Shown one piece after another: positions 16,826 through 41,820 of a DNA stretch of 64,000 nt. The position numbers and the translations under genes were made by a program. The notes under the pieces were generated by a model, which was not told the origin of the DNA, did not search any database, and worked only from the letters and a program-made list of their open reading frames with translations. Location of the stretch: contig NZ_CP039268.1 in the NCBI RefSeq assembly GCF_009664085.1, forward strand, positions 2,523,001 through 2,587,000, read 5' to 3'. Position 1 is the first letter of the stretch; each line of letters begins with the position of its first letter. This DNA is from Thermochromatium tepidum ATCC 43061 (lineage in GTDB: Bacteria; Pseudomonadota; Gammaproteobacteria; Chromatiales; Chromatiaceae).

Positions 16826-16916
16826 CCACTCGAACACCCTGCAGGGTCCGACTTGTCCAAGCCACTTGCTGCCCCTACCTAGCGGCCATCCGTATCACGA
16901 CGATGACACAACCCTC

Positions 16917-17768
16917 ATGGACTCACTGATCAACTCGCTTGCTTCGACCATCAAAGGCCGCGAGATCGCAGACGTCCAGCGTAGCCTGGATACCCGTCAC
17001 ATCGCCATCGACAAGGTTGGAATCAAGGATATCCGCCATCCGGTGCGGGTGCTCGACCGCAGCGGTACCGAACAACATACGGTGGCGACCTTCAACATGT
17101 ACGTCTATCTCCCACATGACTTCAAGGGTACGCACATGTCGCGCTTCGTGGAGATCCTCAATCGCCACGAGCGCGAGATCAGCGTCTCGACCTTCAAGGT
17201 CATGCTCAGCGAGATGACCGAGCGTCTGGAGTCCGAGGCCGGCCACATCGAGATGCGCTTTCCCTTCTTTATCAACAAGAAGGCGCCGGTCTCGGGTGTC
17301 GAGAGCCTGCTCGACTATGAGGTCACTTTCATCGGCGAGATCCGCCATGGTCAGCCGCACATGGAGCTTAGGGTCACTGTGCCCGTCACCAGCCTCTGTC
17401 CCTGCTCCAAGGAGATCTCGGACTTCGGCGCCCACAATCAGCGCTCGCACGTCACGGTCCAGGTGCGCATGGAGCGCTTCATGTGGCTCGAAGAGCTGAT
17501 CGAGCTGATCGAGCGCGAGGCCTCCTGTGAACTCTATGGCCTACTCAAGCGCCCGGATGAGAAGTTCGTCACCGAGCGCGCCTACAACAACCCCAAGTTT
17601 GTCGAGGACATCGTGCGCGACGTGGCCAAGCGGCTGAACGCAGACGATCGCATCCTCGCCTATCGGGTCGAGGCCGAGAACTTCGAATCGATCCACAACC
17701 ATTCGGCCTATGCCATGATCGAGCGCGACAAGGCCACCGAGCTCAGCCCCTTGGGTACCGCGCCCTGA
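16917..17768 (+). CDS. folE2: GTP cyclohydrolase FolE2
   Basis: This 283-aa type IB enzyme makes 7,8-dihydroneopterin triphosphate from GTP, the first step to folate and also the pterin precursor used in queuosine synthesis. The COG1469/FolE2 signatures are [32 protein letters not shown] and [22 protein letters not shown]; the Cys pair lies in the metal/active site. The ATG at 16917 ([11 protein letters not shown]) is preferred over one at 16866. Its stop forms CTGA with the presumed CTG start of menH. Confidence 0.94.
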
Positions 17769-39393: not shown

Positions 39394-40035
39394 TTAGGGG
39401 ATACCCAGCCATTTGTGGGTCTGGACGCTCAGACGCCAGTGCGGATGGGCCTTGCAGTAAGCCACGGCCAGGCGCGTGTTATGGGCGCGCTGCGGTCCAT
39501 CCAGGGGTTGTAGAAAGAAATACCGAAAGTCCAGACCAAAGAAACGCTCCGGGTCAAGTCCAGGCTGCGGGTAGACCAGTTTGAGTTCATCACCTCGGGT
39601 CAGTCGCAGTGGGGCATCGACCTTGGGGCTGACACAGACCCAGTCGAGACCCGGGGGAGCGGGACGGGTGCCATTGGTCTCGACTGCGACCTCGAAGCCT
39701 TGCCGATGTAGGGCGTCGATCAGCGGCACGTCGAGTTGCAGCAGGGGCTCACCCCCGGTACAGACGACATAGGGACGCCCGCTCGCGTCCGCCGCACGCG
39801 ACCAGAGGGCGCGGAGGTGGTTGGCCAAGGCCTCTGGTGTGGGATAGCGTCCGCCACCCTCGCCATCCGTGCCGCGAAAATCGGTGTCGCAAAAGCGACA
39901 GCGGGCCCACGCACGATCCTGCTCGCGCCCCGACCAGAGGTTACAACCGGCAAAGCGGCAGAATACGGCCGCACGTCCGGTTTGGGCGCCTTCCCCTTGT
40001 AGACTGTAAAAGCTCTCCTTGACGAGATACCCCAT
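39394..40035 (-). CDS. queE: 7-carboxy-7-deazaguanine synthase QueE
   Basis: This 213-aa radical-SAM enzyme converts 6-carboxytetrahydropterin to 7-carboxy-7-deazaguanine in queuosine synthesis. It starts MGYLVKESFYSLQGEGAQTGR and has the radical-SAM cluster Cys set within FAGCNLWSG...CRFCDTDF, which contains the long insertion (SGREQDRAWARC) seen in proteobacterial QueE. VCTGGEPLLQLD, VETNGTRP and KVDAPL follow. The ATG at 40035 is set by homology. It lies 4 bases after queD. Confidence 0.94.
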   Translation of the reverse strand: MGYLVKESFYSLQGEGAQTGRAAVFCRFAGCNLWSGREQDRAWARCRFCDTDFRGTDGEGGGRYPTPEALANHLRALWSRAADASGRPYVVCTGGEPLLQLDVPLIDALHRQGFEVAVETNGTRPAPPGLDWVCVSPKVDAPLRLTRGDELKLVYPQPGLDPERFFGLDFRYFFLQPLDGPQRAHNTRLAVAYCKAHPHWRLSVQTHKWLGIP

Positions 40036-40039
40036 GCGT

Positions 40040-41125
40040 TCAGACCGGCAGTGCCGGACCCAGCTTACCCCAACACAGCGAAACACCATGATCTGGCGTC
40101 GGGTATAGATCGATACGATCCAGCTCGGGCAGATCCGTTTGGATGTGCTCGCGGATCCAACGGGCCAGACCCCCAGGGTCGGCGGACTCCACACCATCGA
40201 GCAGATCGAGCCGGTGATGATCGAGCCGGACATAGAGCGGTTGGAACAGGCGCTTGACCTCGCCATAGTCGAGCGTCCAGCCGAGCACCTGGTCCAGCGG
40301 CGCGGTCAGATGCAGTCGCAGCAGATAGCTGTGTCCATGCAGACGCCGCCGTGCGTCGCCGGCGGGGGCGTGTCTCAGACAGAGCGCGGCCTCGAAGCGC
40401 TGCTCCTTCCAGATCCGGTAGTGGAGTCCATCGAAGTGACAGCCGGCGGTCGCGGTCTCCTGGACCGTAACCCAGGACAGCCCCGGCAGCTCGGAGGCAA
40501 GCCGCACCCAGATCCAGCGTGCCAAGAGTTCGCTGGTCGGATTCTCCAGGCCAGGGATGTCGTTGAGACAGGTCTGATGCAGCTCGGCATGCAGCGGCGC
40601 CCAGAGCGCGGCGAGCTGGTCGCCGTCGACGCCCCTGTCGTCTCGATCCTGATCGGCGTGGAGGATGACCTCGAAACCATGGCCGTGCATTCGCCCGCAA
40701 GGGTGACCTGGGGGGACATTCGGCAGCCGATGGGCCGACTCAAAGCGAAACCGACGCCAGAGATGGGCATGACCTACCCCATCAAGATCCACCCCCTGGT
40801 CGTGTCTGCTCTGGATCCCGACGCAGGCGCGGCCGGGCAACGCGAGCCGGTCGCGTACCCAGCGCGCCAGGTTCTCGTCGCTCGGGGTCGGCAGGAGGGT
40901 ATTGAGATCGCGATGGTCGAGCGGCTCGATACAGTGCGCGAGCGCGGCCTTGAGCGCATCCTCCTCCACCCCAGGGCTGGCCCAGCCAGCAGGCAGCTCG
41001 GCACGTAACCGGACCAGGAAGCCGTGACCATGGAGACGCCGTGCAGGATGTCCCTCGGGCAGGTTCGGGAGCCGTCGCGCCGCCTCGAAGTGGGCCAGGG
41101 CGAGATGAAAGACTCTGGCGGTCAT
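40040..41125 (-). CDS. queD: Three-domain QueD-like 6-carboxytetrahydropterin synthase
   Basis: This 361-aa protein holds three QueD/PTPS-like domains in tandem; QueD is normally about 120 aa. Domain 2 (about 124-240) has the Zn His set (H132, H147, H149), the catalytic Cys143 in [11 protein letters not shown] and the VQETATAGC pterin-binding Glu, but its LDHH motif has become LHQT. Domains 1 and 3 keep HGH (H32/H34, H263/H265) and LDHR or LDHH, yet have lost the catalytic Cys (A28, R259) and the first Zn His (R17, L248). It overlaps queC as ATGA. In E. coli QueD turns dihydroneopterin triphosphate into 6-carboxytetrahydropterin. Confidence 0.9.
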
Positions 41126-41820
41126 AAGTCGCCCCCGAAGCGGGCCAGGAGCGGATCGGCGACCCCGGCCTCGGCAAACCCCTTGGCGCGCAATCGACAG
41201 GAATCACAGAGCCCGCAGGGCCGACCGTCGGGGCCAGGGTCATAGCAACTACTGGTCAGGCTGTAATCGACCCCGAGCGCAAGCCCGGTCCGGATGATCT
41301 CGGCCTTGGTCATCTCGATCAATGGGGCATGGATACGATAACACTGGCGTCCCTCGACACCGGCGGCTGTGGCTAGATTCGCCAAGCGCTCGAAGGCGGC
41401 GATGTATTCAGGTCTACAGTCCGGATAGCCGGAATAATCGAGCGCATTGACCCCGATGAAGATGTCGCCCGAGCCCAATGACTCAGCCCAGGCGAGTGCA
41501 CAGGAGAGAAAGATGGTATTGCGTGCGGGGACATACGTCAGGGGGATCCCTAGGCCCATCTCGGCTGGATCGCGCCCCTTGGGGACCGGTAGATCCGAGG
41601 TCAAGGCCGAACCGCCGAACCGACGTAGATCGATCTCGGCGATCACATGCTCGACCACACCCTGAGAGTGAGCGATGCGCGAGGCAGACTCCAGCTCGAT
41701 CGCATGGCGCTGACCATAGCGGATGGATAGGGCATGGGGCGCGAAGCCCTGGGCGCGGGCGATGGCGAGCGCCGTGGCCGAATCCAGTCCGCCGCTTAAG
41801 AGCACGATGGCGGGTTTCAT
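41122..41820 (-). CDS. queC: 7-cyano-7-deazaguanine (preQ0) synthase QueC
   Basis: This 232-aa ATP-dependent enzyme makes preQ0. It begins [19 protein letters not shown] (PP-loop SGGLDS), then [33 protein letters not shown] and a C-terminal Zn site [22 protein letters not shown]. The ATG at 41820 fits the family; an in-frame ATG at 41925 is upstream of the recognisable domain. It is the first gene of queC-queD-queE. Confidence 0.95.

Follow-up and report, generated by a model that had tools for sequence, protein, structure and literature searches.

A conserved three-domain QueD with catalytic residues divided among its tandem domains in Thermochromatium tepidum and related bacteria

Introduction

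QueD is an enzyme of the synthesis of queuosine, a tRNA modification, and is normally composed of identical small subunits. In a 64,000-nucleotide stretch of the Thermochromatium tepidum ATCC 43061 genome (the window denotes this whole stretch), a single open reading frame (ORF) of 361 aa encodes three QueD-like domains in tandem, among which the residues expected of the active site are divided. Is such a chain a genuine QueD and, if so, which of its domains would contribute to a working site? We consider, with a probability of roughly 0.78, that the protein is the QueD of this organism in a fused form, in which the Zn/Cys/Glu residues of domain 2 and the Asp-His pair of domain 3 make up one site per chain. 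It would thus represent a natural experiment in which a symmetric homo-oligomer became a single chain and shed its redundant active sites.

Results and discussion

Locus and domain composition

The Pfam PTPS profile matched the ORF in three stretches (175.1 bits) and so did the TIGR03367 QueD model, whose cut-off of 89.25 bits was exceeded by the summed score of 135.9; the whole protein falls within the QueD family and the NCBIfam model would name it QueD. The tandem of three QueD-like domains, proposed earlier from the letters of the DNA (the sequence-only reading), was thereby confirmed. Single domains encoded in the genome of the window scored 56.9 bits at best, none reaching the cut-off among the matches listed, and only one of 170 genomes of the order yielded any TIGR03367 match over the cut-off, also among the matches listed. 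For annotation this is of consequence: the family model calls the protein QueD, and a check of residues restricted to its first domain would class it as inactive.

The gene is placed between queC and queE, the genome context expected of queD (Table 1). The three-domain form was encoded by one ORF in all 99 homologous loci compared, one of which (L112) is cut inside domain 3 by the contig end. The queE gene was located downstream in 87 loci and queC in the fetched flank in 73 (upstream in 72), with both neighbours in 68 loci and neither in 7; these counts are lower bounds, since some of the loci are short contigs.

Table 1. Features of the three-domain QueD and of related genes in the window.
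Feature	Position in window	Strand	Remarks
Three-domain QueD ORF, 361 aa	40040..41125	-	ATG start; open reading frame, Pfam PTPS and TIGR03367
Domain 1, residues 1-117	40775..41125	-	Degenerate: without first Zn His, Cys and Glu110 equivalent; boundary from AlphaFold2 secondary structure
Domain 2, residues 118-234	40424..40774	-	Retains Zn triad H132/H147/H149, C143, T197-S198-E199, E223
Domain 3, residues 235-361	40043..40423	-	Retains D302-H303, G282, W283, D286
Cys143 codon	40697..40699	-	Catalytic Cys of domain 2, from alignment
H183-Q184	40574..40579	-	Decayed Asp-His position of domain 2; Asp-His intact in 28/107
D302-H303	40217..40222	-	Sole consistently conserved Asp-His dyad, from alignment of 107
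His71 of domain 1	40913..40915	-	Tyr in 103/107 proteins
Cys186 of domain 2	40568-40570	-	In 107/107 proteins
queC	41122..41820	-	PF06508, E 1.8e-69; stop overlaps queD start (ATGA)
queE (radical SAM)	39394..40035	-	PF04055; begins 4 bases past queD stop
FolE2 (GTP cyclohydrolase IB)	16866..17768	+	PF02649 at genome 2539968-2540714 (window 16968-17714); ORF start provisional

Distribution and reality of the fusion

Searching the 195 genomes of the order with the window protein, we found matches at E <= 0.001 in 99, and in 79 of these the match was the three-domain form, including one with an in-frame TGA and one with an insertion between domains. The other 20 matches were short and weak, to other PTPS proteins. 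In a named collection, 303 stretches encode relatives, of which 80 matching most or all of the query were kept; these 80 loci, which overlap with the set of 79 carriers, include Allochromatium, Thiocapsa, Thiorhodococcus, Marichromatium, Thiothrix, Competibacteraceae, Methylococcaceae, Zeimonas, a Magnetococcales MAG and others. Among 370 genomes of the class, 68 had a match at E <= 1e-8, distributed between 21 three-domain and 47 single-domain or partial forms, with no genome found by this search to encode both, and no two-domain intermediate was found among the matches listed for these genomes.

That an assembly or sequencing error joined tandem queD copies, a caveat raised in the sequence-only reading, has a vanishingly small probability: no point in its support was found, and we reject it because the same fusion is present in 79 of the 195 genomes of the order, besides its recurrence in the 80 named loci. 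The fused gene is no artefact but an architecture conserved among purple sulphur bacteria and related organisms.

Two variants were observed: the triple QueD at G129:C240:6994-8013, which comes from a draft genome, has a single in-frame TGA, and in a triple QueD ORF (L140) a linker of repeated DATRT units joins domains 1 and 2.

Division of the active-site residues

To the window protein we aligned 106 of its homologues, 38.6-79.2% identical to it (median 65%), giving 107 distinct proteins; the alignment held 88 at first, and the 19 added were divergent proteins from other families and genera. Twenty-two single-domain QueDs were aligned for comparison, and for 37 of the 79 triple carriers of the order the individual residues were inspected (30 loci and 7 regions).

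In the window protein, the positions of the first Zn His, the catalytic Cys and the two further Zn His are occupied by R17/A28/H32/H34 in domain 1, H132/C143/H147/H149 in domain 2 and L248/R259/H263/H265 in domain 3, the Asp-His positions by D70-H71, H183-Q184 (LHQT) and D302-H303 (LDHH), and the position equivalent to Glu110 by S106, E223 and P342, respectively. The Zn triad, Cys and LHQT reported earlier for domain 2 were found as described, as was the loss of the Cys and one Zn His from domains 1 and 3 next to LDHR or LDHH. The Glu of VQET, earlier taken for the pterin ligand, is present as E223; the pterin-anchoring Glu of rat PTPS presumably corresponds instead to E199 of the helix-2 motif, which is likewise invariant in domain 2. 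With three domains and a residue set divided among them, in place of a single-domain subunit holding every residue, the window protein is filed as a fused variant and not as an ordinary QueD.

Domain 2 retains H16, C27, H31, H33, T84, S85, E86 and E110 (E. coli QueD numbering) in 107/107 proteins, and this full eight-residue set was found in none of the 107 in domain 1 or in domain 3; the Zn His triad with the CxxxHGH signature likewise occurs in domain 2 only, in all 107. The equivalent of Asp70-His71 is intact in domain 3 of 106 proteins (the remaining one has an unread letter, X, at D302), in domain 2 of 28 and in domain 1 of a single protein. The catalytic Asp-His of a QueD is thus present in domain 3 and absent from domain 2 of the window protein. 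H303, G282, W283 and D286 of domain 3 are invariant; the last three, equivalent to G50, W51 and D54 of E. coli QueD, are found in domain 1 in 44, 74 and 1 of 107 proteins, respectively, and D54 in domain 2 in 87, the G50/W51 positions of domain 2 not aligning in the window protein. Across the 107 proteins, the tandem T-folds have therefore lost catalytic residues in a complementary manner.

The sequence-only reading had placed the Asp-His donor in domain 1 or 3, and only the latter half of this proposal held. Domain 1 was ruled out as donor, the dyad being intact in the window protein alone, and its LDHR is a local oddity. The absence of the dyad from domain 2 applies to the window and to most of the proteins; in the 28 that keep it the division is incomplete. 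On the tree of 106 triples, the intact domain 2 dyad undergoes 9 changes, of which at least 8 are forced by well-supported branches, the exact number being uncertain because the tree has many long branches, and the dyad of domain 3 was never seen broken. Since domain 2 keeps its Zn/Cys/Glu set throughout and domain 3 its Asp-His pair in all but the one unread case, the live site would most likely combine Zn, Cys143 and Glu of domain 2 with Asp302-His303 of domain 3.

Alternatively, domain 2 could be self-sufficient, with substitutes near the lost dyad (H183 and the invariant C186) doing its work and domains 1 and 3 serving as scaffolds. C186 indeed occurs in every triple protein at a position held by Tyr in 19 of the 22 single-domain QueDs, and His is the commonest residue at position 183 (64/107), but positions 183-184 take 17 residue combinations and the Asp-His of domain 3 was never seen changed. 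The latter counts against a domain 3 that is a scaffold only, as a mere scaffold would not need the dyad, and we regard self-sufficiency of domain 2 as improbable. Placed beside the decayed dyad, C186 is reminiscent of the second Cys of QueF, which is protective (PMC5372742), and may have a similar role.

It counts against the favoured reading that the two dead pockets do not seem to be simply drifting, because the second and third Zn His are near-invariant in them (the two HGH histidines in 107/107 each in domain 1, in 103 and 107 of 107 in domain 3) and domain 1 has fixed residues of its own where His, Ser and Glu would be canonical, namely Y71 (103/107), D83 (107/107) and S106 (104/107). 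Domain 1 also retains the anchoring-Glu position E84 in 94/107 proteins. On these features of domain 1 rests a rather unlikely extension, an allosteric QueD, in which domain 2 would catalyse, domain 3 would lend its Asp-His across a dimer and domain 1 would hold a non-catalytic, regulatory pterin pocket.

Queuosine pathway and other PTPS-family genes

The genome of the window (one contig, 2.96 Mb, 99.97% complete) contains QueF, Tgt and QueA besides FolE2, which lies in the same window and would supply the first step of the pathway; a profile search for FolE-IA (PF01227) found none in this genome. Nor was another canonical QueD found there; a separate single-domain QueD doing the work was among the findings that, according to the sequence-only reading, would refute its proposal. 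The sole other PTPS-family protein of the genome (L003, genome 2007661-2008020) has 189 aa and, by eye, an ExxHGH motif with no Cys, and was thereby ruled out as the canonical QueD; ExxHGH is given as the PTPS-III, folate-type signature in PMC5041015. By eye, its gene adjoins an apparent short-chain dehydrogenase and folD.

Could the fused protein have ceased to make 6-carboxytetrahydropterin and now act in a different reaction on pterins, or as a scaffold? Two of its three pockets are dead, as such a change would allow, but queC or queE lies close by in 92 of the 99 loci, domain 2 has an intact CxxxHGH, the QueD signature according to PMC5041015, and no other canonical QueD was found in the genome. 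A changed function is thus very improbable, and the fused protein as the QueD of the organism is the reading we retain.

Of 170 genomes of the order, 32 encode a canonical single-domain QueD that belongs to a different lineage (g4-type, E <= 1e-20), and none of the 32 is among the 79 triple carriers. Against a clean replacement of the single-domain QueD counts the triple carrier G158, where a 7-kb contig encodes an extra single-domain QueD-like protein with CEKPHGH (CExxHGH) that scores over the QueD cut-off. Among the matches listed, additional PTPS relatives also occur in other triple carriers, including one of 210 aa in G143. In addition, ORFs of 415-538 aa (L115, L116, L117, L122 and L124) join an uncharacterised N-terminal part to a C-terminal PTPS domain with CxxxHGG (Gly for the third Zn His) and with Asp-His and Glu retained; they were found in two genomes with a triple QueD (G145, G151) and in three without (G003, G046, G060).

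Predicted structure and assembly of the site

AlphaFold2, supplied with 41 sequences (the window protein and 40 of the 80 named loci), gave a model of the 361-aa chain with pLDDT 90.4 and pTM 0.88, residues 281-284 falling below pLDDT 50. The chain is confidently predicted as three T-folds: three beta-beta-alpha-alpha-beta-beta repeats, with short turns leading from the last strand of a domain to the first strand of the next. The best solved matches were, in order, QueD chains for domain 2 (E. coli QueD, Z 11.7, rmsd 1.4 over 117 residues), uricases for domains 2-3 (Z 11.6, rmsd 4.0, 211 residues) and GTP cyclohydrolase IB for domains 1-2 (Z 10.0, rmsd 5.6, 199 residues). The sequence-only reading, which envisaged a built-in trimer with one composite site as possible, is thus supported in part: in the division of the residues, with one complete set per chain in 107 proteins, and in the predicted three-domain arrangement.

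PTPS is a dimer of trimers joined head to head, in which each Zn site lies where three neighbouring monomers meet (PMC7546909); the title of Burgisser 1995, as cited, names an intersubunit catalytic triad for the enzyme. An ordinary QueD/PTPS site draws the Zn triad, the Cys and the Glu from a single subunit and the Cys-activating Asp-His from a second one. In rat PTPS, Cys A42 reportedly acts together with Asp B88 and His B89, the site being formed by subunits A, A' and B close to the trimer-trimer interface, from which we deduce that B belongs to the opposite trimer. With the site between monomers and the Asp-His on a subunit so placed, the site of the fused QueD may form between two chains.

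We envisage that QueD copies were joined, apparently once, into one chain with as many T-folds as the usual trimer, three, and that the two halves of the site would then have been free to be lost separately. Domain 2 would have retained the Zn/Cys/Glu half and domain 3 the Asp-His half; domain 1, retaining neither, would be mainly structural. Two fused chains would pair head to head and bring domain 2 of either chain against domain 3 of its partner, which makes two live and four dead sites. The outcome would be one complete site per chain, or two per head-to-head dimer in place of six. Both the enzymatic activity and the dimerisation of the fused QueD are what we infer here.

The same conservation fits equally well a composite site within one chain, the built-in trimer of the sequence-only reading, in which domains 2 and 3 meet inside one pseudo-trimer and the monomer is a complete enzyme, and the choice of the chain supplying the Asp-His is to be read in this light. 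A within-chain site would also agree with the confident single-chain arrangement of the AlphaFold2 model and with bimodular QueF, a single chain whose two T-fold domains hold the site between them (PMC5372742). Against it, the strand order of the predicted model roughly suggests that the domain 3 loop lies across the ring from the Zn site of domain 2. The residues of rat PTPS, reportedly contributed by A and B near the trimer-trimer interface, speak against it as well. We hold the within-chain site to be possible though doubtful, and Asp-His donation by the partner chain to be probable. Whichever chain donates it, the fused form allows either half of the PTPS/QueD site to be mutated by changing a single domain, unlike in homomers, and the intersubunit triad thus becomes directly testable.

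Origin of the three domains

For the domain tree, 20 diverse triples were cut into their domains and combined with the 22 single-domain QueDs, the resulting tree having few columns and many open forks. The four groups require 3 changes together, the minimum possible. Domain 1 and domain 3 each form one side of a branch at 100/100, and 2 changes are required for domain 2 and likewise for the single-domain set; domain 3 joins the single-domain QueDs, and not domain 2, on a long branch (99/100). The sequences fit a single origin of the fused form and would be compatible with one triplication as well as with stepwise joining.

Comparison with known systems

Among the titles and abstract starts of the matches listed from the open-access PMC literature, none dealt with a three-domain QueD. 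With E. coli QueD (6-carboxytetrahydropterin synthase, PDB 4ntk/4ntm; TIGR03367, COG0720 PTPS-I) the window protein shares the T-fold, the Zn triad, CxxxHGH, both Glu and the Asp-His; it differs in having three domains and a divided set, whereas the single-domain subunits of the E. coli enzyme each hold every residue. The 6-pyruvoyl tetrahydropterin synthases (rat, human, Plasmodium) share the Zn triad, the intersubunit triad (from the cited title) and the head-to-head dimer of trimers (PMC7546909), but are single-domain, and PTPS-II has CxxxxxHGH in place of CxxxHGH, according to PMC5041015. Uricase and GTP cyclohydrolase IB also carry tandem T-folds, two per chain, and match the predicted structure across two domains; they belong to other families with other chemistry, at <=11% identity in the structure alignments. 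Tandem T-folds that divide one active site are already known, and the closest precedent, bimodular QueF of V. cholerae and E. coli, acts in the same pathway: according to PMC5372742, its tandem T-folds arose by duplication and its catalytic elements are divided between two domains, which make up the site together, as the domains of the window protein would do judging from its residues. QueF differs in having two domains, another reaction and no central tunnel, whereas the fused QueD has three domains, one of them silent.
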